Positions 8,253 to 33,288 of a stretch of DNA of 64,000 bases are shown here, in pieces. The position numbers and the translations under genes are program-made. Every line of letters begins with the position of its first letter. The first letter of the stretch is position 1. The DNA comes from Flavobacteriia bacterium 40-80. Lineage in GTDB: Bacteria > Bacteroidota > Bacteroidia > Flavobacteriales_D > Crocinitomicaceae. The notes beneath the pieces were generated by a model, which was not told the DNA's origin, ran no database searches, and worked only from the letters and a program-made list of their open reading frames with translations. The stretch lies in NCBI GenBank assembly GCA_001899145.1, contig MKVF01000006.1:310001-374000 (forward strand), written 5' to 3'.

Positions 8253-8990
8253 ATGCGAATAGTATTAGGTTTTATACTGACTCCGGTTTTCTATCTTCTT
8301 TTTTGTTTCTTCTTAGGGATATTTCATCCGATTCAATGGCTTTCTTTAAAATTAGGAGGATACAATGCTCATAAGAAAAGTGTGGACATACTGAATTTCT
8401 TTCTGAATTATTCTCAATTGATAATGCTCAACTGGGTCTGCCTGAAGCAGCGTTTCAAGCTTCCGAAAAACCGCTCCATTCTTTTTGTATCCAATCATCA
8501 GTCTTCTTTCGATATTCCGGGATTAATCTATTACTTCAGGAAATTTCACGGAAAGTTCGTTTCTAAAATAGAGCTTTCGAAAGCTAAGATCCCAAGCATT
8601 TCCTTCAATCTCCTTCATGGAGGAGCGGCAAATATAGATCGCAATAATCCGGAGCTTTCCAAACGTGAAATAGCAAAGCTGGCAGACAATATGAGAAACA
8701 AAAAATGGTCAGCTTTTATCTTTCCGGAAGGTACGCGTTCTAAAGATGGAATCATGAAGCCTTTTAAAATCGGGGGGATAGAAACATTTGCAAATCTTGT
8801 CCCTGACCTGCTTATTGTTCCGGTTGCCATTTCCGGCTCTTACAATATCGTTCGCAGAGGCCCTTTTCCGCTAATGCCTTTTAATAAGATAAAATGGGAA
8901 GTTCTGGAACCCATTGAATTAAGAGGTAAAAACATTGCAGACATTGTTAAAGCGGCAGAAAACGCAATCCGAAATAAAATTTCTAAATGA
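8253..8990 (+). CDS. 1-acyl-sn-glycerol-3-phosphate acyltransferase (PlsC family)
   Basis: A protein of 245 residues with one or two N-terminal membrane helices, the catalytic HX4D motif NHQSSFD (His82, Asp87) and the acceptor-binding FPEGTRS block (residues 157-163). Family knowledge: PlsC acylates lysophosphatidic acid at the inner membrane to make phosphatidic acid for phospholipid synthesis. The stop overlaps the CPBP protease ATG in ATGA, so the two are translationally coupled. Other PlsC paralogues acting on ornithine or glycine lipids cannot be excluded. Confidence 0.9.
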   Translation: MRIVLGFILTPVFYLLFCFFLGIFHPIQWLSLKLGGYNAHKKSVDILNFFLNYSQLIMLNWVCLKQRFKLPKNRSILFVSNHQSSFDIPGLIYYFRKFHGKFVSKIELSKAKIPSISFNLLHGGAANIDRNNPELSKREIAKLADNMRNKKWSAFIFPEGTRSKDGIMKPFKIGGIETFANLVPDLLIVPVAISGSYNIVRRGPFPLMPFNKIKWEVLEPIELRGKNIADIVKAAENAIRNKISK

Positions 8991-9547
8991 CCTCAAAACG
9001 GAAGATCTATCTCCTCGGACTCCTGACGTTATTCGCTTTTCCGGTTCCTACATTCATTTACAGAATTATATGGCAATCAGAAAGCTTTTATGAGATCATG
9101 GAGCTGGATCTCTTCTGGAACCTGAATACCCTGAACGGTCTGGCATTTGGAATTATATATGCACAGCTTGCCGTTTTTCTGTTAAAAAAGCCTGTATTCA
9201 AAAATGAATTAAATAAGCAGCAGCAAATGATCCGGCAGCTAAATCTGAATAAATTCGATGCTGTTTTTTTGTCTCTCTGTGCCGGTATCGGAGAAGAGCT
9301 GCTATTCAGAGCAGGAATTCAGCTCTGGCTGGGCCCTGTAATTACAACTATAGTTTTTATTGCCGTACACGGATATTACCATCCGAAAAACTGGCGGATG
9401 TCCCTGTACGGGCTTTTGCTTACTCCTTTTATATTGGTCCTGTCTTTTGGATATGATTACTGGAGTTTATGGTTTGCCGCGGCGGCCCATTTTGCTTACG
9501 ACTGGGTATTATTTAACGAAAGTTCCCTCGAAAATAATACGCGCTGA
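8987..9547 (+). CDS. CPBP family intramembrane glutamic endopeptidase
   Basis: A protein of 186 residues with several membrane helices. The CPBP/ABI (Rce1-like) motifs are all visible: EELLFR with Glu103-Glu104 and Arg108, FIAVH with His128, and HFAYD with His168 and Asp172. These form the active site within the membrane. Bacterial members range from prenyl-protein endopeptidase-like enzymes to immunity proteins; the substrate is unknown here. It overlaps the acyltransferase gene by 4 bases. It is slightly short for the family, but the catalytic set is complete. Confidence 0.83.
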   Translation: MTSKRKIYLLGLLTLFAFPVPTFIYRIIWQSESFYEIMELDLFWNLNTLNGLAFGIIYAQLAVFLLKKPVFKNELNKQQQMIRQLNLNKFDAVFLSLCAGIGEELLFRAGIQLWLGPVITTIVFIAVHGYYHPKNWRMSLYGLLLTPFILVLSFGYDYWSLWFAAAAHFAYDWVLFNESSLENNTR

Positions 9548-9645
9548 TTTTTAAGATAATAGATATATATAATTAAAAAAATCTTTTTTTGAAACTATTT
9601 TAACAATTATTCGTTAAACGGATGTGACGTTTATTTCCATAAAGT

Positions 9646-12018
9646 ATGAATCTTATTAGTCAACAATTACTTACAATCTGTTTTTCCCTGGTGATAATGA
9701 TAACAAATTCGTTTTCATCTGGCCAGCAGGATCCGAAACATGCTTCCGGCATAAAAACAGAATCTGAAACCTCTGTTCACAAGCTTGTCAAGATAAACAA
9801 TGATTATCTGATGAATGAATTGTATCTTCAATCATTAAGCTCAGGCAAGCGGTTAACGGAGCTTGAACCCGGAAATGCTAATTTCAATTACCGGTACGGG
9901 GTAGCCTTAAATCAGACTTCCAAATACCTGGAAGAGCCTATCACCTATCTGAAAAAAGCAGCGGAAAAAACTTCTTCAAAAGCCGACATGTTCAATCCAA
10001 ACGAAAAAAGCGCACCCACTGATGCCATTTATCTTTATGCGCTTGCTTTACACAGGTTCGGAGAAATCGATGAAGCAATCGATAATTACAAGAAATTCAT
10101 TGCTGTTGCAGGAAATAAACATCCGCTGTACAATCAAGCAGCATTAAACTTAACACAGGCAGAAAATGCTAAAAACACTATTGATAATAAAGAAATAAAG
10201 GAGCTGGTACCTTTAAACACTTCCATAAATACAAACACTTCCGAGTTTGCTCCTATTGTTTCCTTCGATGGTACTAATCTGTATTTTACTTCCGGAAGGC
10301 CCTGGACAAAAGATAATAAAGAGAACCAGATAGATCCTGTTACCGGCACTTATTATGAAGATATCTATGTCAGCTCATTGGTTGACAATGAATGGACAGC
10401 TCCTGAAATGATCGGTTTCTGTTCTCCTTCTGAAAATGAGGCGAGCATTTCCGTAAGTGTGGATGAGCGCAGAGTGTATATATACAACAGTGAAACCGGA
10501 AACGGAGATATTTATTATTCTAATTTCGAAAACGGAAAGTTCAACCAGATAAAAAAACTGAACAATGATAATGTCAATACAGAGGACTGGCAGACGCACT
10601 ATACTGTTTCTCCAAACGGAAAAATGGCATTATTTACCTCAAACAATCCGAAGGGATTCGGAGGGCTGGATATTTATATGATTACTAAAAACGCGGATAA
10701 TACCTGGTCAGCCCCCGTAAATTTAGGTCCTGAGATCAATACAAAATATGATGAAGATGCTCCGTTTATTTCATTCGACGGAAAAACCCTGTATTACGCT
10801 TCAAATAATGAAAGATCGATCGGAGGGTTTGATATCTTCAAAGCAGAATGGAAAGACGGAAAATTTATTAATTCCGAAAATCTCGGAACTCCCGTTAATT
10901 CAACGTACGACGATTTATTTTTCTCAATTACGGCGGATGGGCTGACTGCCTATATTTCTTCTTTCAGAAAAGGCGGGCACGGCGAACTGGACATCTACCA
11001 GGTAATATTTAACGAAAGTAATTCCACGAATTCTGTCCTTAAAGGACGGATCTATCTGACAGACGGATATGAAACAATTCCCGAAAATATAGCAATGCAG
11101 CTGAAATGTATTGATTGCTCGGATGAAGAAATAATAACGCTGTTGCCACGCATCCGTGACGGTAAATTTTATTCCGTTCTGGAAAAATGTAAAAAGTATG
11201 AACTAAAGTACATCAACTCTGTTTCAGGGAAAGAAATCGCAATTCAGAACTTCAGCACAAATTGCGAGGAAACATTTGAATCAATTGAAAAAGAACTGGG
11301 AATTGAAGTTGATGAAAACCGGGAAATTTCAGTAAGCCAGCTTTACACATTAAGAGGTTCCGTATTTGATAAAGAAACGAATGCAAAGCTGGAAGGAGCT
11401 GAAATTGAAGTTCAGGATAAAAACGGAAAAACACTTTATTCAGTGTACACCAGAAAAGACGGCACGTATGTTTCCAATGACTTCAAAGGATTAAAGCTTA
11501 ACTCTAACACGACCTGCAAGCTTATCATTAATAAGCCAGGATATATTTCCGTTTCCAAAGATGTTGCATTTGTTGCCGGCAGTGATCGTTATATTGATAT
11601 AGAACCGATCGGTATTGAAAAATCCAAAGCAGGAAAAGACTTGGGTAAAGTGATGGTATTAAACACGATTTATTACGATCTGAACAGCTCTTATCTACGA
11701 AAAGACGCGAAAAAAGAGCTGGATAAGATCGTCCAGGCAATGAACCTGAATCCGAATATCGTTATTGAATTAGGTTCCCACACGGACTGCCGTGAAGACG
11801 ATGAATACAATCAATGGCTTTCTGACAGAAGAGCAATGCGCGCAGCTGAATATATCAAAAAGCGTATTAAAAACGGAGACGCACGCATCACAGGTAAAGG
11901 ATATGGTGAAACACAGCTGCTGAATAATTGCGGATGTGAAGAAGCAGATGATTCCAACTGTTCAGAGGAACAGCATCAGATGAACAGAAGAACAGAGTTC
12001 ATCATTGTGAAAGAGTGA
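9646..12018 (+). CDS. TPR / PD40 propeller / OmpA outer-membrane protein, PorE-like
   Basis: An exported protein of 790 residues with an N-terminal signal region (about 1-26). Order of domains: TPR-like helices (about 40-160), PD40/WD40-like propeller repeats (about 195-440, e.g. PIVSFDGTNLYFTSGRP), a carboxypeptidase-regulatory-like beta domain (about 568-640) and a C-terminal OmpA peptidoglycan-binding domain (about 665-790, with GSHTDCREDDEYNQWLSDRR near 708). This order matches PorE of the Porphyromonas type IX secretion machinery, but such proteins are multi-copy in flavobacteria. PorE is a lipoprotein and no lipobox is visible here, so only the architecture is asserted. A strong terminator follows. 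Confidence 0.85.
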   Translation: MNLISQQLLTICFSLVIMITNSFSSGQQDPKHASGIKTESETSVHKLVKINNDYLMNELYLQSLSSGKRLTELEPGNANFNYRYGVALNQTSKYLEEPITYLKKAAEKTSSKADMFNPNEKSAPTDAIYLYALALHRFGEIDEAIDNYKKFIAVAGNKHPLYNQAALNLTQAENAKNTIDNKEIKELVPLNTSINTNTSEFAPIVSFDGTNLYFTSGRPWTKDNKENQIDPVTGTYYEDIYVSSLVDNEWTAPEMIGFCSPSENEASISVSVDERRVYIYNSETGNGDIYYSNFENGKFNQIKKLNNDNVNTEDWQTHYTVSPNGKMALFTSNNPKGFGGLDIYMITKNADNTWSAPVNLGPEINTKYDEDAPFISFDGKTLYYASNNERSIGGFDIFKAEWKDGKFINSENLGTPVNSTYDDLFFSITADGLTAYISSFRKGGHGELDIYQVIFNESNSTNSVLKGRIYLTDGYETIPENIAMQLKCIDCSDEEIITLLPRIRDGKFYSVLEKCKKYELKYINSVSGKEIAIQNFSTNCEETFESIEKELGIEVDENREISVSQLYTLRGSVFDKETNAKLEGAEIEVQDKNGKTLYSVYTRKDGTYVSNDFKGLKLNSNTTCKLIINKPGYISVSKDVAFVAGSDRYIDIEPIGIEKSKAGKDLGKVMVLNTIYYDLNSSYLRKDAKKELDKIVQAMNLNPNIVIELGSHTDCREDDEYNQWLSDRRAMRAAEYIKKRIKNGDARITGKGYGETQLLNNCGCEEADDSNCSEEQHQMNRRTEFIIVKE

Positions 12019-25343: not shown

Positions 25344-26246
25344 ATGAATGATTTATTATTAAAATTCTTTAACTTTATTCAAAATATAGGCATAACTCTC
25401 ACTACCTTGGGAAAAATCTTATTCCTTTCGAAAAGAAATAGATTAAATAGAACTGTAAATAGAAAGGAGAAAACACTGGTGATATTAGGTAACGGACCTT
25501 CGCTCAATACTTCTCTTACTTATTTTAATAATGAAGAAAACCGAGTAGATGTTTTAGGGTTAAATAATTTTGCGACGACCAAATATTTTGAAAAAATCAA
25601 ACCATCGTATTATGTACTATTGGATGAAAAATTTTATCCCCTCGAAAAGCACGAATACGATCAATATTATATAGATTTAATAAACTCAACTTTTGAAGCA
25701 TTGGAAGCAAAACTAACATGGGAGATGATATTGTTTGTTCCTTTTAAAGCAAAAAAATCAGCTTATTTCCAAAACTGTTTAAAACGTAACAAATATATTA
25801 AGGCTTCCTATTATAATGTCACACCAATTGAAGGCTTTCCTTTTATAAAACATTTATTCTTCAATAATAGACTGGGATTACCACGTCCTCATAATGTTTT
25901 AATTCCTTCATTAATGATTGGTATTTGGGAAGGATATTCAGAGATAGCAATTGTCGGTGCAGATCATTCATGGCTGGGTGAAATTCATGTTACGAAAGAA
26001 AACGTAGCTTTAGTCAATCAAAAACATTTTTATGATGAAAAGAAAAGTAAGCCGCAATTAATGAAAAACTATGCAATGCAGCAGAGAAAATTACATGAAA
26101 TATTGTATGGATTTTACCTCTCCTTCAGATCTTATTGGGATATAAAGAAATATGCTGAATCAAAAAAAGTTAAGATATATAACTGTTCTGAAGTATCCTT
26201 TATTGACGCATTTGAACGTAAGGAGTTAATAGAAATACTAAAATAA
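25344..26246 (+). CDS. Maf/DUF115- or GT42-like protein, candidate nonulosonate transferase
   Basis: A protein of 300 residues. A Rossmann-like nucleotide site LVILGNGPSLNTS (Gly49-Leu54 core GNGPSL) resembles both GT42 sialyltransferases (Cst) and DUF115/Maf proteins. The later segment SLMIGIWEGYSEIAIVGADHSW (split here by family pattern; about residues 190-211) matches the C-terminal core of those families. Family knowledge: Maf proteins transfer pseudaminic acid to flagellin in Campylobacter and relatives, and GT42 enzymes use CMP-sialic acid. Sitting directly before pseB, it is the best candidate for using CMP-Pse. Its base composition is low in GC (20/60 in 25681-25740). Confidence 0.7.
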   Translation: MNDLLLKFFNFIQNIGITLTTLGKILFLSKRNRLNRTVNRKEKTLVILGNGPSLNTSLTYFNNEENRVDVLGLNNFATTKYFEKIKPSYYVLLDEKFYPLEKHEYDQYYIDLINSTFEALEAKLTWEMILFVPFKAKKSAYFQNCLKRNKYIKASYYNVTPIEGFPFIKHLFFNNRLGLPRPHNVLIPSLMIGIWEGYSEIAIVGADHSWLGEIHVTKENVALVNQKHFYDEKKSKPQLMKNYAMQQRKLHEILYGFYLSFRSYWDIKKYAESKKVKIYNCSEVSFIDAFERKELIEILK

Positions 26247-26358: not shown

Positions 26359-27369
26359 ATGAAAGGTAAATCGATATTAATAACTGGAGGAACGGGCTCG
26401 TTAGGAAAGGAATTAACTAAAAGAATCTTGAGTGAATATCCTGATTTGAAGCGTTTGGTTATTTTTTCAAGAGATGAGCAAAAGCAGTTTCAAATGGCTC
26501 AGGAATTTCCTCATTCACAATTTCCTCAAATCAGGTATTTTATTGGTGATGTAAGAGATTATGAGCGTTTGATAAGGGCCTTTAATGGTGTGAATTATAT
26601 TATTCATGCAGCAGCAATGAAACATGTTCATATTGCAGAATATAACCCTGATGAATGTGTTAAAACAAATATTGGAGGCGCTCAAAATGTTATAAATGCA
26701 GCACTAGCGACAGAAGTAACTAAAGTTGTTGCGCTTTCTACCGATAAAGCATGTGCTCCAATTAATTTATATGGAGCGACCAAATTGACTTCCGATAAAT
26801 TATTCATCGCGGCAAACAATATTCGTGGTACAAAAGACGTTCGGTTCTCAGTAGTAAGATATGGAAATGTGATGGGATCGAATGGCTCTGTAATCCCATT
26901 TTTTTTACAAAAAAGAAAGGAAGGATTTCTTCCAATTACAGTAAAGGAAATGACACGATTCAATATTTCACTAAAAGGTGGTGTTGATATGGTTCTCCAC
27001 GCCTTAGAAAATGCTTGGGGAGGAGAATTATTTGTACCAAAAATTCCTTCTTATAACATTATGGATGTTGCTAAAGCGATAGCTCCAAATGCTGAATTTA
27101 GATTTGTAGGAATTCGTCCTGGAGAAAAAATTCATGAAGAAATGATAAGCCCTTCCGACTCATTTTTCACTTATGATTTAGGCAAATATTATGCGATTTT
27201 GCCACAAACACCAACTTGGAGCATTAATGATTTTGTCAATAAATTTAACGCTAAGAAAGTACCTGACGGCTTTTCTTATAGTTCAGACGCTAATTCTGAT
27301 TGGGAAACTGTTGAAAGCTTAAGAAGTCTGATCAAAGAACATGTGGACTCTACATTTGAAGTAATATGA
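26359..27369 (+). CDS. pseB: UDP-N-acetylglucosamine 4,6-dehydratase (inverting)
   Basis: A short-chain dehydrogenase of 336 residues. The NAD(P) motif GGTGSLG is at residues 10-16, and the catalytic set STDKACAPINLYGATK puts Asp129-Lys130 and Tyr138 in the same spacing as FlaA1/PseB. HAAAMKHV (about 83-90) is typical of the 4,6-dehydratase group. It converts UDP-GlcNAc to the 4-keto-6-deoxy-L-sugar, the first step to pseudaminic acid. The stop overlaps pseC in ATGA. Base composition is AT-rich compared with carB. Confidence 0.95.
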   Translation: MKGKSILITGGTGSLGKELTKRILSEYPDLKRLVIFSRDEQKQFQMAQEFPHSQFPQIRYFIGDVRDYERLIRAFNGVNYIIHAAAMKHVHIAEYNPDECVKTNIGGAQNVINAALATEVTKVVALSTDKACAPINLYGATKLTSDKLFIAANNIRGTKDVRFSVVRYGNVMGSNGSVIPFFLQKRKEGFLPITVKEMTRFNISLKGGVDMVLHALENAWGGELFVPKIPSYNIMDVAKAIAPNAEFRFVGIRPGEKIHEEMISPSDSFFTYDLGKYYAILPQTPTWSINDFVNKFNAKKVPDGFSYSSDANSDWETVESLRSLIKEHVDSTFEVI

Positions 27370-28547
27370 AATCTATCCCATACGGAAAACAGCATATTAC
27401 ACAGGAAGATATCAATGCAGTGATTCAGACACTACAATCAGATTTCCTGACGCAAGGACCAAAAATAGCCGAATTTGAAACAGAATTTGCAAAATATATC
27501 GGAGTAAAATATGCTGTGGCAGTTGCAAATGGAACCGCTGCATTGCATTTATGTGCAATGGCACTAAATGTAAAAGAAGGACAAAAAGTTATTACAACAC
27601 CAATCACTTTCGCAGCGTCTGCAAATTGTGTAAGATACTGCGGTGCGGAAGTTATTTTTGGAGATATTGACCCTGAAACGTATTTATTGGACATTCATTC
27701 TGTTGAAAAATTAATAGAAAATGCTCCGAAGGGGACGTATCAAGGAATAATCCCTGTCGATTTTGCAGGAAGAGCAGTTAATCTGGAAGAATTTAGAAAA
27801 TTAGCAGGTGCACATGGAATGTGGATCATTGAAGATGCATGTCATGCTCCGGGAGGTTATTTTGTGGATTCAGCGGGCACAAAACAATTCTGCGGAAACG
27901 GAAATTTTGCCGACCTGGCAATTTTTTCTTTTCATCCGGTAAAACACATAGCATCGGGAGAAGGTGGAATGATTACTACAAATGATGAGCAGCTTTATAA
28001 AAAAATCTTGACGTTACGAACTCATGGAATCACACGTGATGAAAAATTATTCTCCAACACTATTGAACTAGCCGGAGGAGAGGATAGTTATCCTTTGTGG
28101 TATATGGAAATGCAGGATTTAGGATACAATTACCGACTAACAGATTTTCAGGCAGCCTTGGGTGCAAGTCAATTAAAACGTGCCAATGAAGGTTTGAAAA
28201 GAAGACGAGAAATAGCAGCTAATTATCAACAAGCATTTGATGGAAAAAGTTATTTAAAGGGACAATCAGGACTTATTGAGGGTCATGCTTATCACTTGTA
28301 TGTTCTGGAAGTGGAAGACCGGTTGAATTTGTATAATTTCTTAAGAAAGAAAAATATTCTTGCTCAAATTCATTACATTCCCTGTCATTTAATGCCCTAC
28401 TACAAGCAATTTGGCTGGAAAGAAGGAGATAAAATAAATGCAGAAAATTATTATAAACACTGCATTAGTTTACCAATGTACCCAACCTTAACAAATAAAG
28501 AACAGGATTTTGTAATTCAGACAATAAACGAATTTTATGGAAAGTAA
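27366..28547 (+). CDS. pseC: UDP-4-amino-4,6-dideoxy-L-AltNAc transaminase
   Basis: A PLP aminotransferase of 393 residues (DegT/DnrJ/EryC1 fold). EDACHAPGG (Asp157) and SFHPVKHIASGEGG with the Schiff-base Lys193 mark the cofactor site. The length and start MKSIPYGKQHITQEDI are typical of PseC. It aminates the PseB product at C4 using glutamate. Translationally coupled to pseB by a 4-base overlap and to the methyltransferase by an 11-base overlap. Confidence 0.95.
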   Translation: MKSIPYGKQHITQEDINAVIQTLQSDFLTQGPKIAEFETEFAKYIGVKYAVAVANGTAALHLCAMALNVKEGQKVITTPITFAASANCVRYCGAEVIFGDIDPETYLLDIHSVEKLIENAPKGTYQGIIPVDFAGRAVNLEEFRKLAGAHGMWIIEDACHAPGGYFVDSAGTKQFCGNGNFADLAIFSFHPVKHIASGEGGMITTNDEQLYKKILTLRTHGITRDEKLFSNTIELAGGEDSYPLWYMEMQDLGYNYRLTDFQAALGASQLKRANEGLKRRREIAANYQQAFDGKSYLKGQSGLIEGHAYHLYVLEVEDRLNLYNFLRKKNILAQIHYIPCHLMPYYKQFGWKEGDKINAENYYKHCISLPMYPTLTNKEQDFVIQTINEFYGK

Positions 28548-29169
28548 ATACCAGACTAAACAAGAAGACTTTTGGGCGGGAAACTTTGGAAACGAATACA
28601 TCCAGAGAAATAAAAGCGCTCAATATTTAGCTGCAAATTTGAATTTTTTCTCAAAAGCTTTGAACAATATTCCTGCACCCAGGTCAGTTATTGAGTTTGG
28701 AGCAAATGTAGGAATGAATCTGGCAGCATTTCAATTGTTGTTTCCTGAAACCATTGTAAAAGGTATCGAAATCAATGAAACTGCGGCAGAAGAGTTAGTA
28801 ACCCGTATTGGGAAGGATAACGTATTTAACCAGTCCATATTTGATTTTAATGTAGATGAACAATTTGATTTGACGCTTATTAAAGGAGTGCTGATTCACA
28901 TTAATCCTGATATGTTGTCCACTGTTTATGAAAAACTGTATATTTCATCAAAAAAATACATTTTGCTCTGTGAATACTACAATCCATCTCCTGTCACTAT
29001 TCCTTACAGAGGACATAGTGACAGATTGTTTAAACGTGATTTTGCAGGAGAAATGATGGACAAATACAATGATTTAAAACTGGTTAATTATGGATTCGCA
29101 TATCATCGGGACAATTCATTTCCACAAGATGATATAACCTGGTTTTTGATGGAAAAAATAAATGGTTAA
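28537..29169 (+). CDS. SAM-dependent methyltransferase of pse clusters
   Basis: A class I methyltransferase of 210 residues with SAM motif I VIEFGANVGMNL (residues 51-62) and acidic motif GIEINE (about 76-81). N-terminal FWAGNFGNEYIQRN and YRGHSDRLFKRDFAGE (about residues 165-180) match the family annotated as pseudaminic-acid-biosynthesis-associated methylase (TIGR03587 as I recall it). Its acceptor is unknown; methylation of a nonulosonate or of its precursor is inferred from position. It overlaps pseC by 11 and pseF by 8 bases. Confidence 0.87.
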   Translation: MESKYQTKQEDFWAGNFGNEYIQRNKSAQYLAANLNFFSKALNNIPAPRSVIEFGANVGMNLAAFQLLFPETIVKGIEINETAAEELVTRIGKDNVFNQSIFDFNVDEQFDLTLIKGVLIHINPDMLSTVYEKLYISSKKYILLCEYYNPSPVTIPYRGHSDRLFKRDFAGEMMDKYNDLKLVNYGFAYHRDNSFPQDDITWFLMEKING

Positions 29170-29845
29170 TCTCTGCATCATACCGGCAAGAGGCGGCAGT
29201 AAAAGAATTCCAAGGAAAAACATCAAGGGTTTTCTCGGCAAGCCCATTATCGCTTATTCCATCGAAGCCGCAATAAACAGCAAATTATTCGATGAAGTAA
29301 TGGTATCTACTGATGATGTAGAAATTGCGGAAACAGCAAAAAAATATGGTGCAAAAGTTCCTTTCCTGAGAAGTAAAACAAATGCGAGTGATGTTGCTAC
29401 TACTGCAGCTGTAATTGATGAGGTTCTGCAAAACTATCAAAATGAAGGAATGAAATTTGATTTCGTTTGCTGCATTTATCCTTGCGCACCATTTGTGAAT
29501 GATACAAAATTAAAAAGCGCTTTTGAACTTCTTAAGGAAAAACAATTTGACACGGTATTTCCGGTTATTGCTTTTAGTTTTCCTATCCAGCGGGCACTGA
29601 AAATTACAAATAATAAGCTAAGCTTCATCCAACCGGAATACGCATTGACAAGATCACAAGATTTAGAGCAATCCTTTCAGGATTCAGGGCAATTTTACTG
29701 GATGAGCGTTCCTGCTTTTCAAAAGAAAGGGAAAATTGTCACAGAAAATTGTGGCGGAATTGTAGTTTCAGAAATGGAAGCCCATGATATTGACAATGAG
29801 ATAGATTGGAAAATGGCTGAATTAAAATATAAGATGCTGAAATGA
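29162..29845 (+). CDS. pseF: Pseudaminic acid cytidylyltransferase
   Basis: A protein of 227 residues with the cytidylyltransferase signature PARGGSKRIPRKN (about residues 8-20), then PIIAYSIEAA, VSTDD and IYPCAPFV (about 102-109). This is the acylneuraminate/KDO cytidylyltransferase fold, and the length and context fit PseF, which makes CMP-pseudaminic acid from CTP. NeuA-like specificity is less likely beside pseB, pseC and pseI. Confidence 0.93.
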   Translation: MVNLCIIPARGGSKRIPRKNIKGFLGKPIIAYSIEAAINSKLFDEVMVSTDDVEIAETAKKYGAKVPFLRSKTNASDVATTAAVIDEVLQNYQNEGMKFDFVCCIYPCAPFVNDTKLKSAFELLKEKQFDTVFPVIAFSFPIQRALKITNNKLSFIQPEYALTRSQDLEQSFQDSGQFYWMSVPAFQKKGKIVTENCGGIVVSEMEAHDIDNEIDWKMAELKYKMLK

Positions 29846-30408
29846 GTGTTTTTCCGAAAAAATACAGAATACTGAAAAATAACGAATTCTCCTCCGGAAA
29901 CTATAAAATAATTCCTATTCGTTATGAAGACCGGCTTGCAATAATGCAATGGCGGAATGAACAAATTTATCACTTACGGCAACCCAGCCCGTTAACAGAA
30001 GAAAACCAGAATAATTATTACAACAGTATAGTATCTAAATTATTTGAGCAGGATCAACCAGACCAGATTTTATTCTCATATCTGGAAAATGATCAATGTA
30101 TCGGATATGGTGGACTGGTTCACATTAACTGGACAGATAAAAACGCTGAGATTTCATTCGTAATAAATACCAGCCTTGAAAGAGAAGAATTTCACAAGCA
30201 TTGGGGTATTTATCTTGATTTGATAGAGCAAGTCGCTTTTCTTGAACTAGGACTTCATAAAATTTACGTATATGCATTTGATCTGCGGCCACATTTGTAT
30301 CAGGCAATAGAAGCAAAAGGATATTTAAAAGAGGCAGAATTGAAAGAACATTGCTATTTTAACGGAGGATTTAAGAATGTAGTGATTCATTCAAAAATTA
30401 TAAAATGA
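29842..30408 (+). CDS. GNAT acetyltransferase in pse operon
   Basis: A protein of 188 residues. AIMQWRNEQIYHLRQPSP (about residues 34-51) and GYGGLVHINW (about 88-97) with a distal LGLHKIYVYAFD resemble RimJ/RimL-type GNAT enzymes. Acetyl-CoA-loop residues are less clear than in the next gene. It overlaps pseF and the following GNAT gene by 4 bases each. It could acetylate the 4-amino sugar (PseH role) or an extra amino group; its neighbour has the more PseH-like sequence. Confidence 0.75.
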   Translation: MSVFPKKYRILKNNEFSSGNYKIIPIRYEDRLAIMQWRNEQIYHLRQPSPLTEENQNNYYNSIVSKLFEQDQPDQILFSYLENDQCIGYGGLVHINWTDKNAEISFVINTSLEREEFHKHWGIYLDLIEQVAFLELGLHKIYVYAFDLRPHLYQAIEAKGYLKEAELKEHCYFNGGFKNVVIHSKIIK

Positions 30409-30869
30409 GCCCATTATTAAACATAAAGTCCGATTTTATATTGCGCCCGGCTACTCTGGATGATTGTGTATTGTTTTTTGAGTGGGTAAATGACGAAGAT
30501 GTACGGAGGCATTCATTTCACACTGAAAAAATCGAATGGCAACATCACAAAAAATGGTTTCATAATAAAATGAATAGCCAGCAAAGTAAGCTCTTTGTTT
30601 TATCAAAAAACAATATTCCAATCGGACAATGCCGTTTAGATAAAGAACAAGAGTTTTGGCTAATTGATTATTCAATTGATAAGAAATATAGAGGAAAAAG
30701 TTATGGAAATATAATTGTACAGATGTTGATTGAAAAAGATTATAGTCCAATAAAAGCGATTGTAAAAAAAAACAATATAGGCTCTGTAAAAGTGTTTAAA
30801 AATAATTTCTTCTCATTACAGGAGGATCAATATTTGAATGAAGATGTGTATGTTTTTTATAAATTTTGA
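30405..30869 (+). CDS. pseH: GNAT acetyltransferase, probable PseH
   Basis: A protein of 154 residues. FILRPATLDDCVLFFEWVND (residues 11-30), VRRHSFHTEKIEWQHHKKWF (about residues 33-52), PIGQCRLD and YRGKSYGN form the GNAT core with the acetyl-CoA loop. This pattern is that of the acetyltransferase paired or fused with PseG in pse loci. PseH acetylates the C4 amine of the PseC product. The symbol rests on sequence pattern plus operon position, and the other GNAT gene could instead fill the role. Confidence 0.75.
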   Translation: MSPLLNIKSDFILRPATLDDCVLFFEWVNDEDVRRHSFHTEKIEWQHHKKWFHNKMNSQQSKLFVLSKNNIPIGQCRLDKEQEFWLIDYSIDKKYRGKSYGNIIVQMLIEKDYSPIKAIVKKNNIGSVKVFKNNFFSLQEDQYLNEDVYVFYKF

Positions 30870-30880
30870 CAATTCTGATT

Positions 30881-31567
30881 ATGAATCTGTATATACTTTT
30901 ATCTGAAAAAAAATGGCACAAAAGTCTTTTTGTGAAGCTGCAAAAAAAATATCAGGATAGAGCGGAATGGCTGCTGATAAATAATCCAGGTGAGTTTACC
31001 TTAGAGAAGTTAGATAAGCTTAATCCTGATAAGATTTTCATACCTCATTGGTCATACATTATTGATAGACAGATTTATGAAAAGTACAAATGTATTGTAT
31101 TTCACATGACTGATTTACCCTATGGAAGGGGTGGCAGCCCTCTTCAAAATTTAATTATCAGAGGATTAAAAAGAACTAAAATAACAGCAATAAAAGTAAA
31201 TCAGGGAATTGATTCAGGAGATATTTATCTAAAAAAAAACCTTTCCTTAGATGGTACCGCAAGAGAGATTTTTGAAAGAGCAGTACCCGTTATCCAAAAG
31301 ATGATCATACAAATCATTGAAGAAAAAATAATACCACAACCTCAAACCGGAGAAGTAGTTCTTTTTAACAGAAGAAAGCCTGAGGAGGGAAATATTAATG
31401 ATCTGAAAGAATTAGAGAAAATATATGACTATATTAGAATGTTGGATTGCGAAGGTTATCCGAAGGCTTTTATAGAAACCGAAAACTTTAAGATTGATTT
31501 TTCAAAAGCTCAATTTAATCAGGAACAAAACTATATTGATGCCCATGTTAGAATATATAAGAAATAA
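30881..31567 (+). CDS. Formyltransferase-like protein in pse operon
   Basis: A protein of 228 residues from the ATG at 30881; a TTG five codons upstream overlaps the previous stop and is less likely. FHMTDLPYGRGGSPLQN (residues 74-90) and GIDSGDIYLKK (about 109-119) match the formyl-transferase fold (methionyl-tRNA formyltransferase N-terminal domain). His75 and Asp111 fit the catalytic His and Asp, but the usual Asn two residues before the His is Val73. The length lacks the C-terminal tRNA-binding domain, which argues for a sugar-nucleotide formyltransferase. A role in N-formylating the nonulosonate is inferred. Confidence 0.78.
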   Translation: MNLYILLSEKKWHKSLFVKLQKKYQDRAEWLLINNPGEFTLEKLDKLNPDKIFIPHWSYIIDRQIYEKYKCIVFHMTDLPYGRGGSPLQNLIIRGLKRTKITAIKVNQGIDSGDIYLKKNLSLDGTAREIFERAVPVIQKMIIQIIEEKIIPQPQTGEVVLFNRRKPEEGNINDLKELEKIYDYIRMLDCEGYPKAFIETENFKIDFSKAQFNQEQNYIDAHVRIYKK

Positions 31568-32255
31568 ACGGGTGATGGTCGTAGTCGCACATCCTGATGA
31601 CGAGCTGCTGGGGCTGGGAGCGACAATGAACAAGCTGATATCCGAATATGGAATTACCGCTCATGTGGTAATACTGGGAGAAGGAATCACATCAAGATCG
31701 GAAGAACGTGATGTGGAAAAATGGAAAGAAGAGCTTGCTATTCACAAACAAAACATACAAAATGCTCAAAAAGCAATAGGATATCAATCCTTAGCTGTTT
31801 ATGATTTCCCGGATAATCGTTTTGATACGGTTGCGTTACTGGACATTATCAAAGTGATCGAAAAGGAAAAACAACTCTTTAAACCGGAAATTATATTTAC
31901 ACATCACGGCGGAGATGTCAATATTGACCATCAGCGGGTATTCGAAGCTGTCATCACGGCAGGCAGGCCAATGGCTCAGGAAAAGGTAAAAAGCATTATT
32001 GCATTTGAAACTCCGTCAGGAACGGAATGGCGAGCATCTTCAGATCCTCGCCATTTCATTCCTAATTTTTTTGTTTCCGTATCTGAGGAAAATATAAATG
32101 CCAAAATAAAAGGAATGGAAAGCTACGAGTTCGAAAAACGCCCCTACCCCCATCCCCGTTCTCCACAAGCATTGAAAATACAGGCTCAGCGGTGGGGAGT
32201 GGCCGTGGGAACAGAGTTTGCTGAAGCATTTCAGGTAATACGAATAATTAGTTAA
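31545..32255 (+). CDS. PIG-L family N-deacetylase
   Basis: A protein of 236 residues with the zinc motif VVAHPDDELLGLG (His16, Asp19 with this start) and a third ligand in HHGGDVNIDHQRV (about residues 118-130). This is the LmbE/PIG-L fold, which removes acetyl groups from amino sugars. The start is ambiguous: ATGs at 31539, 31545 and 31575 are all in frame, and 31545 gives the usual short lead before VVAHPDDE. It overlaps the formyltransferase gene by 23 bases. Removing an acetyl group so that a formyl group can be added is a natural inference. Confidence 0.85.
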   Translation: MLEYIRNKRVMVVVAHPDDELLGLGATMNKLISEYGITAHVVILGEGITSRSEERDVEKWKEELAIHKQNIQNAQKAIGYQSLAVYDFPDNRFDTVALLDIIKVIEKEKQLFKPEIIFTHHGGDVNIDHQRVFEAVITAGRPMAQEKVKSIIAFETPSGTEWRASSDPRHFIPNFFVSVSEENINAKIKGMESYEFEKRPYPHPRSPQALKIQAQRWGVAVGTEFAEAFQVIRIIS

Positions 32256-32274
32256 ATTAATACTTCAGTATATT

Positions 32275-33288
32275 ATGAATAATGAAAAGGTGTTCATTAT
32301 CGCGGAATTATCAGCAAATCATAATGGGAACTTAACAACAGCCATTGAAACGATCCATGCAGCAAAACGCGCGGGTGCAGATGCTATTAAGTTACAAACT
32401 TATACAGCAGATACGATGACTTTAGATTGTGATAAAGATGATTTTATTATAAAAGGAACAATTTGGGAAGGACAAAATTTACATCAGCTCTATCAGGAAG
32501 CATATACGCCATGGGAATGGCATGTACATCTGTTTGAAGTAGCAAAAGAAGAAGGTTTGATTTGCTTCTCCTCACCTTTTGATAAAACAGCAGTCGATTT
32601 TTTGGATACATTAAACTGTCCGATATACAAAATAGCATCTTTTGAAATCACGGACATTGAGCTGATCAAATATGCCGCTTCAAAAGGAAAACCAATGATT
32701 CTTTCTACGGGAATAGCCGAATATGAAGATATAAAATTAGCTGTTGACACTTGTCGTTCTGTTGGCAACAATGATATTACCTTATTGAAATGCACCTCTT
32801 CTTACCCTGCACCGGTTGAAGAAGCAAATTTGATAATGATAAAACGTTTTGCTCAGGATTTCGGGGTAAAAACCGGTCTATCAGATCATACGCTTGGGAT
32901 TACCATACCCATTGTTTCCGTAGCAATGGGAGCGAAAGTGATCGAAAAACACTTTATCACAGACAGGGCTATTGGCGGGCCAGACGCAGCATTTTCGCTG
33001 AACGAGCAGGAATTTACAGAAATGGTTACAGCCGTGAGACAAGCCGAAAAATCAATCGGAGCAGAAAGCTACGAAACGACTCCTAAGCAAAAAGCAGGAA
33101 AACAATTTGCCCGCTCGTTGTATGTGGCCGAAGATATAAAAGCAGGAGAAGTGATTACAACAAATAATGTACGGACGGTAAGACCGGGATACGGCCTGCA
33201 TCCTAAATACTACCATGAAATACTGGGTAAAAAGGTAAACCGGAATCTTGAAAAGGGCGACCGATTTTCTCTTGATGATATTGAATAA
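32275..33288 (+). CDS. pseI: Pseudaminic acid synthase
   Basis: A protein of 337 residues with an N-terminal NeuB-type TIM barrel (FIIAELSANHNGNL, residues 7-20; GLSDHTLG; EKHFITDR) and a C-terminal SAF/antifreeze domain (from about 278, with ARSLYVAEDIKAGE). It condenses the 2,4-diacetamido sugar with phosphoenolpyruvate to form pseudaminic acid. The PseI assignment over NeuB or LegI follows the pseB/pseC/pseF neighbours. The last codons lie within the shared terminator stem. Confidence 0.93.
   Translation: MNNEKVFIIAELSANHNGNLTTAIETIHAAKRAGADAIKLQTYTADTMTLDCDKDDFIIKGTIWEGQNLHQLYQEAYTPWEWHVHLFEVAKEEGLICFSSPFDKTAVDFLDTLNCPIYKIASFEITDIELIKYAASKGKPMILSTGIAEYEDIKLAVDTCRSVGNNDITLLKCTSSYPAPVEEANLIMIKRFAQDFGVKTGLSDHTLGITIPIVSVAMGAKVIEKHFITDRAIGGPDAAFSLNEQEFTEMVTAVRQAEKSIGAESYETTPKQKAGKQFARSLYVAEDIKAGEVITTNNVRTVRPGYGLHPKYYHEILGKKVNRNLEKGDRFSLDDIE

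Follow-up and report, generated by a model that had tools for sequence, protein, structure and literature searches.

The window analyzed here, a stretch of 64,000 nucleotides from Flavobacteriia bacterium 40-80 (contig MKVF01000006.1, positions 310,001 to 374,000), contains on its + strand, at 26359-33288, an operon for cytidine monophosphate (CMP)-pseudaminic acid (Pse), Pse being a sugar akin to sialic acid, in which the normally essential uridine diphosphate (UDP)-sugar hydrolase PseG is missing and a protein that we name GNAT1 is proposed to replace it. The operon opens with pseB, an inverting UDP-N-acetylglucosamine (GlcNAc) 4,6-dehydratase (26359..27369; TIGR03589, 492.9 bits), which overlaps by four bases the aminotransferase gene pseC (27366..28547; TIGR03588, 458.2 bits); a Pse-associated methylase (28537..29169; TIGR03587, 303.6 bits) and the cytidylyltransferase pseF (29162..29845; TIGR03584, 304.5 bits) follow, and the pseudaminic acid synthase gene pseI closes the series (32275..33288; TIGR03586, 523.8 bits). 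All five scores lie above the NCBIfam cut-offs; that PseB, PseC, PseF and PseI do so together in one operon places it in the Pse pathway. Four further genes stand between pseF and pseI, and the first two both carry GNAT domains according to Pfam. GNAT1 (29842..30408) matches Acetyltransf_4 at 54.4 bits and has no NCBIfam match at E<=0.01. GNAT2 (30405..30869), the acyl module, is a PseH-like N-acetyltransferase that scores 37.2 bits with TIGR03585, below the cut-off of 93.1. Next come a formyltransferase-like protein, FmT (30866..31567; PF00551, 30.2 bits; PF21553, 83.9 bits), and a PIG-L type deacetylase (31545..32255; PF02585, 74.4 bits), in which we read the motifs AHPDDE and HHGGDVNIDH; AHPDDE and HxxDH-type motifs are typical of that family. 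The PIG-L start is probably the ATG at 31545 and not the TTG at 31494, judging from the sequence. Each gene runs 4 to 23 bases into the next, the exception being pseI, which follows a short gap. Every gene that the first-pass annotation had named is present among the open reading frames of the window, and NCBIfam and Pfam together confirm that gene set (pseB, pseC, pseF, a PseH-like GNAT, pseI, a second GNAT, a formyltransferase, PIG-L and a methylase).

That annotation had also remarked that no PseG is seen between or beside these genes, and had left two possibilities: that pseG lies elsewhere, or that another protein releases UDP. The remark holds. The first possibility is contradicted by a TIGR03590 search of the whole genome (3.52 Mb, 32 contigs, 99.71% complete), which found no PseG and on which we rejected the idea of a distant copy: the top match, a partial one, reaches 34.8 bits, far short of the cut-off, 153.55. 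It lies in a 318-residue protein encoded on a contig other than that of the operon; by eye, this protein is MurG-like and its gene adjoins one for a histidine kinase. Comparable weak, partial matches occur in four genomes (G011, G146, G161, G169; G and L numbers denote genomes and loci) that have no PseI at E<=1e-60, a threshold at which 98 genomes match in the family search. A NeuC-type hydrolyzing epimerase was discarded as well: the sole TIGR03568 match, again on another contig, scores 45.8 bits, and the cut-off is 235.9.

Complementary distribution of GNAT1 and PseG

The first clue to what stands in for PseG came from close homologues of the window's FmT, which, apart from the window's genome, occur in 2 of the 240 genomes of the family. 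One of these (G063) has the order PseF, PseG (135 bits, below the curated cut-off), a fusion of a PseH-like domain with a formyltransferase, PIG-L and PseI; the other (G049) has no PseG match, and its GNAT1 is fused to a PseH-like domain directly before formyltransferase, PIG-L and PseI. Comparison of the two gene orders therefore puts GNAT1 in the position of PseG. For the family as a whole, all 55 PseI places over cut-off (from 54 of the 240 genomes) were read with their surroundings and scored by profile hidden Markov models, with thresholds of >=100 bits for GNAT1 and >=60 bits for PseG. GNAT1 is present at 32 of these loci and PseG at 21; none has both, and for the two that have neither, the contig starts some 250 bases ahead of PseI.

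The same exclusion emerged from an even sample of 395 genomes from across the phylum, of which 56 have PseI over cut-off. PseG was searched in these 56 plus G574, where PseI is just under the cut-off (339 bits); five genomes in which PseI-like matches stay under the cut-off (G362, G444, G462, G486, G585) were left out, one of which, G362, has a GNAT1-like match of 79.5 bits. Of the 57 genomes, 48 have a PseG match of >=100 bits. Strong GNAT1 matches (216-291 bits) were found in exactly the nine that lack it (G000, G310, G322, G392, G408, G412, G464, G517, G527) and in no other of the 395; six weaker matches to the GNAT1 profile (43-80 bits) resemble other GNATs. Six of the nine (G310, G322, G392, G408, G517, G527) have no PseG match at E<=0.001. 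By locus, the 56 phylum loci apart from the window divide into 8 with GNAT1, 45 with PseG, none with both and three with neither, for which PseG lies on another contig of the same genome. Family and phylum together thus provide 111 unbiased loci: 40 with GNAT1, 66 with PseG, none with both, five with neither. We also scanned GTDB genome contigs for GNAT1 and took the best 80 of 362 stretches that encode a relative; all of these 80 are, by title, from Bacteroidota (e.g., Mesonia, Tenacibaculum, Flavobacterium, Pedobacter, Sphingobacterium, Algoriphagus and uncultured Prevotellaceae). In these named loci PseI is found in 78/80 and PseG in 0/80; the two without PseI are L147, where the contig ends beside GNAT1, and L170, where there is none within the stretch. 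Across all 191 loci, unbiased and named (some genomes were read twice, e.g., L146 and L151 are in both sets), not one combines GNAT1 with PseG. A search of plasmids for GNAT1 gave a single match, 26.9% identical, in a Paenibacillus record.

Proteins encoded within 7 kb of PseI were then clustered by single linkage for 106 unbiased loci. The family that contains GNAT1 is the only one that is both universal in GNAT1 loci (40/40) and underrepresented in PseG loci; it reaches 11/66 of the latter because the single-linkage component takes in other GNATs. No further family enriched in GNAT1 loci exceeds 13/40, on which ground we rejected other neighboring genes as substitutes for PseG. GNAT1 and PseG thus share a slot near PseI, and they share a fusion partner, too: in the 191 loci there are 60 proteins in which GNAT1 is N-terminally fused to a GNAT2 domain and 39 in which PseG is N-terminally fused to that same, GNAT2-related domain. 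Comparative genomics in this way lends support to the second of the two possibilities above, release of UDP by another protein, and makes GNAT1 the specific candidate.

The exchange has been repeated. For the tree of PseI and the pair tests we used 106 of the 111 unbiased loci, leaving out the five with neither protein. PseI sequences from GNAT1 loci are interleaved with those from PseG loci; the tree requires 16 or more switches between PseG and GNAT1, and starred branches force a minimum of seven of them. With labels shuffled the mean is 32.4 switches; the trait is hence clustered, though it did not arise just once. One sister pair from a single genus consists of L017 (GNAT1) and L081 (PseG), which have similar flanking genes and the two proteins exchanged; L017 additionally carries FmT and PIG-L, unlike its sister. 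In seven independent pairs over starred branches PseG stands opposite to GNAT1 in 7/7, partly by construction because the loci with neither protein were left out. In the same seven pairs, few of which differ and which have little power, PseB, PseC, PseF, the methylase, PIG-L and FmT have no significant association with the swap.

The GNAT1 protein and its proposed role

The AlphaFold2 model of GNAT1 (mean pLDDT 93.7, pTM 0.90) has a predicted GNAT fold, with 588 Protein Data Bank (PDB) matches at E<=0.001 in Foldseek; the 50 listed are named as, or resemble, acetyltransferases. The best is Helicobacter pylori PseH with acetyl-coenzyme A (CoA) (4ri1; E 1.5e-13, TM 0.73/0.76), with SpeG close behind; by VIA-align, SpeG polyamine acetyltransferases reach Z 21.6 against Z 20.3 for PseH (2.0 Å, 164 residues). 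In addition, GNAT1 has no TIGR03590 match, and these two features together indicate that it is not a homologous PseG. Compared with the PseH of 4ri1, GNAT1 is similar in predicted fold but is only 18-20% identical, has a separate acyl module alongside it, and lacks the P-loop motif. In GNATs, acetyl-CoA is bound by the P-loop Q/R-x-x-G-x-G/A after strand 4. Even in the relaxed form [QRK]xx[GS]x[GAS], this motif occurs at GNAT1 residues 106-123 in none of 116 distinct sequences, and in the model a helix (110-135) begins where the P-loop is expected. The consensus of 37 GNAT2 relatives keeps an RGKG P-loop, with N124 and S127 invariant. A comparison of the GNAT1 and GNAT2 profiles aligned a tail of only 14 columns, which arose because the GNAT2 segments excised from fusion proteins still included the end of GNAT1. 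Twenty-five GNAT1 residues are kept in >=98% of the 116 sequences, and they include R27, D30, R38, N39, Q41, R46, Q47, Q56, Y59, S79, E103, S105 and R149.

Bearing this distribution and this predicted fold in mind, we consider it probable that GNAT1 is a non-homologous replacement of PseG: a UDP-sugar hydrolase built on a GNAT fold within a CMP-pseudaminic acid operon. The pathway that we envisage would proceed as follows. PseB and PseC would generate UDP-4-amino-4,6-dideoxy-N-acetylaltrosamine (AltNAc), whose 4-amine GNAT2 would acetylate; GNAT1 would bind the resulting UDP-sugar, its presumed substrate, and hydrolyze off UDP; PseI would condense the free sugar with phosphoenolpyruvate, and PseF would then make the CMP sugar. 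It is from the complementary distribution of GNAT1 and PseG that we infer the release of UDP. A little less firmly, we think it likely that GNAT1 founds a widespread Bacteroidota family of GNAT-fold nucleotide-sugar hydrolases that has lost the acetyl-CoA site, has probably arisen from a UDP-sugar-binding PseH-like enzyme, and has been exchanged with PseG many times. The ancestor of GNAT1, we infer, was PseH-like: its pocket for the UDP-sugar would have been retained, CoA binding lost and hydrolase activity gained.

The alternative with most to recommend it, although we regard it as unlikely, is that the operon has in GNAT1 a second, real N-acyltransferase, and that UDP comes off spontaneously or by the action of some unspecific hydrolase encoded elsewhere. 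Membership of the GNAT superfamily, both by Pfam and by predicted fold, and the proximity of the SpeG and PseH structures agree with such a role; it leaves unexplained, however, why GNAT1 is present where PseG is missing, and it fits poorly with the persistence of GNAT1 where a formyltransferase or ATP-grasp module replaces GNAT2 (see below) and with a P-loop motif that is at its site in 0/116 sequences. We give somewhat less credence to a non-catalytic GNAT1 that acts as a partner, letting PseI or GNAT2 accept or hydrolyze the UDP-sugar: GNAT1 resembles a degenerate GNAT, lies close to PseI and is often fused to GNAT2 (the 60 proteins mentioned above), but it is also found without GNAT2 nearby, the PseI sequences of GNAT1 and PseG loci are interleaved, and its invariant polar residues (R27, D30, R38, N39, Q41, R46, Q47, Q56, Y59, E103, R149) look more like those of an active site than of a scaffold. 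It seems very improbable that PseG activity comes from a hydrolase that is distant or unlinked, be it the MurG-like 318-residue protein, a NeuC-like epimerase or a further phosphoesterase, and that GNAT1 has an unrelated function, given that the two matches in favor of this (34.8 bits, partial, with TIGR03590; 45.8 bits with TIGR03568) are far below cut-off and on other contigs, that similar partial PseG matches occur in genomes without PseI, and that the six GNAT1 genomes named above have no PseG match at E<=0.001.

Several observations weigh against GNAT1 as the hydrolase. We know of no GNAT-fold nucleotide-sugar hydrolase, and the exclusion between GNAT1 and PseG could also reflect a helper role. 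The exact probability of the 48/9 split, 1.1e-10 for unrelated genomes, is too small a figure because these genomes are related. One genome, G110, holds both proteins, each in a cluster of its own. Nor does the lack of the motif prove that CoA binding is lost, because only 47/114 GNAT2 sequences meet the strict P-loop motif anywhere, and 10/116 GNAT1 sequences have it elsewhere, mostly as QCIGYG in strand 3. Finally, PseC (>=250 bits) is rarer in GNAT1 loci, at 26/40, than in PseG loci, at 56/66 (p=0.004 for the PseC family in the 7-kb scan), and some GNAT1 clusters may therefore yield another product; several of the clusters that lack PseC locally belong to one lineage, and PseC may instead lie elsewhere in their genomes.

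The FmT/PIG-L pair and other acyl modules

Another observation to emerge from the 106 unbiased loci is that the acyl module varies independently of the choice between GNAT1 and PseG. GNAT2 is the only such module in 29 GNAT1 and 41 PseG loci; a formyltransferase without GNAT2 is found in 3 and 9, respectively (one of these nine, L110, rests on a 20-bit match on the opposite strand); PIG-L with GNAT2 and FmT in 2 and 2; other combinations with PIG-L in 0 and 6; and none of these modules in 6 and 8. GNAT1 is therefore not tied to the acetylation module.

By sequence, the solved chain closest to FmT is 1zgh (235 bits), and the match to the formyltransferase PseJ (6ci2/6ci4) is 27 bits only. Formyltransferases have an Asn-His-Asp triad; aligned to 4iqf, FmT keeps the His and the Asp, and a Val takes the place of the Asn, as it does in 1zgh. 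A close homologue of FmT (>150 bits) is encoded in nine loci, all nine of which also have PIG-L. In three of them the pair accompanies PseG (L018, L269, L270) and in six GNAT1 (L017, L019, L162, L163, L165, L205); PIG-L is found in only 2/40 unbiased GNAT1 loci. These counts do not support the suggestion of the first-pass annotation that the operon carries the formyltransferase and PIG-L instead of PseG, and we rejected the pair as a PseG substitute: it is a separate module, and a link between it and the loss of PseG is not supported. PIG-L occurs without a close FmT homologue in five loci (L115, L258, L265, L279, L280). A 559-residue protein in L265, of the size of a carbamoyltransferase in L255, and a 315-residue protein in L279, hexapeptide-like by eye, are candidates for the N-acylating partner; L258 has a 323-residue protein with no Pfam match. 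A GNAT2-type domain is kept in 13/14 PIG-L loci.

We suggest that PIG-L removes the N-acetyl group inherited from GlcNAc, freeing the future C5 amine, and that FmT would formylate this nitrogen. An N-formylated nonulosonate is thus a plausible product of the operon, and the most likely outcome of such an exchange would be a 5-N-formyl-7-N-acetyl derivative, to which the methylase could add a methyl group. Where a formyltransferase occurs without PIG-L, GNAT2 is not nearby in 28/31 loci (12 unbiased and 16 named; the other three, named, have GNAT2), as expected if the formyltransferase there formylates the 4-amine like PseJ, whose function we take to be just that.

Some clusters contain further variations. 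In L270, which has PseG, two formyltransferase-like genes flank PIG-L (8413-9785 and the next gene), and the product is possibly doubly formylated. In the place of the missing PseH, L089 (6970-9539), L145 (9568-11882) and L271 (6639-8961) have an epimerase/SDR and an ATP-grasp protein with a HAD or metallophosphoesterase protein; the host clusters have GNAT1 in L089 and L145 and PseG in L271 (L271 was assigned by size and sequence start only). This module perhaps adds an amino-acid-like acyl group. In L255 (10249-11928) the carbamoyltransferase gene lies between PseG and PseI, GNAT2 is not nearby, and an N-carbamoyl variant is possible.

Three observations concern other parts of these clusters. 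Directly upstream of pseB in the window, an MptE-like protein (25344..26246, + strand; PF01973, 29.3 bits, under the cut-off of 34.6) may be a nonulosonate transferase of the Maf-like type, Maf being the family that we take it to resemble; its family occurs within 7 kb of PseI in 8/40 GNAT1 and 5/66 PseG loci. In L104 (5592-7412), a 607-residue protein with NeuB-like and CTP_transf_3 domains takes the place of a missing PseF, beside a GDSL-like protein of 238 residues; L095, L099 and L103 have proteins of similar size at that position. A module that recurs in Pse clusters (L145, 6051-8985; L017, 8636-10732) comprises an aldo/keto reductase-like protein, a CTP_transf_3 protein and a protein that by eye is aminotransferase-like; the CTP_transf_3 domain has a Pfam match only at L145 6920-7678, and the last two proteins are apparently fused in L017.

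Comparison with known systems and implications

Like the CMP-Pse pathway of Campylobacter and Helicobacter (PseB, PseC, PseH, PseG, PseI and PseF), the window has PseB, PseC, PseF, PseI and a PseH-like GNAT; it differs from that pathway in lacking PseG and in adding GNAT1, the methylase, the formyltransferase and PIG-L. With PseG, GNAT1 shares its slot, its fusion partner and a complementary distribution, but neither a TIGR03590 match nor, as predicted, its fold. PseJ, which the PDB contains as 'formyltransferase PseJ', is like FmT a formyltransferase by name in the Pse pathway; FmT differs in being paired with PIG-L, in the retention of GNAT2 beside it and in having 1zgh as its closest chain. 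The pathway of Tannerella forsythia was reportedly characterized by Friedrich in 2017. Formylated pseudaminic acid is already known, and PMC6388019 lists N-formyl derivatives of Pse and legionaminic acid and describes T. forsythia pathway enzymes characterized in vitro; PMC6120980 lists a T. forsythia pseG gene directly before pseI. If this 'pseG' belongs to the GNAT1 family and not to that of PseG, the activity that we propose may already be in print. No description of a GNAT that replaces PseG was found in the open-licence literature, which was represented mostly by titles and the beginnings of abstracts.

If GNAT1 is indeed the hydrolase, a well-studied sugar pathway would, in many Bacteroidota, have one of its essential steps carried out by an enzyme of a fold that has not been linked to such chemistry, and this would explain why 40 of 111 PseI loci have no PseG. 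The genes for GNAT1 would then need a new functional name, bearing in mind that the GNAT1 of the window matches only acetyltransferase families, and the protein would offer a second hydrolase for the enzymatic synthesis of pseudaminic acid. The clusters themselves show a modular logic, in which the hydrolase and the acyl modules are chosen independently of one another.

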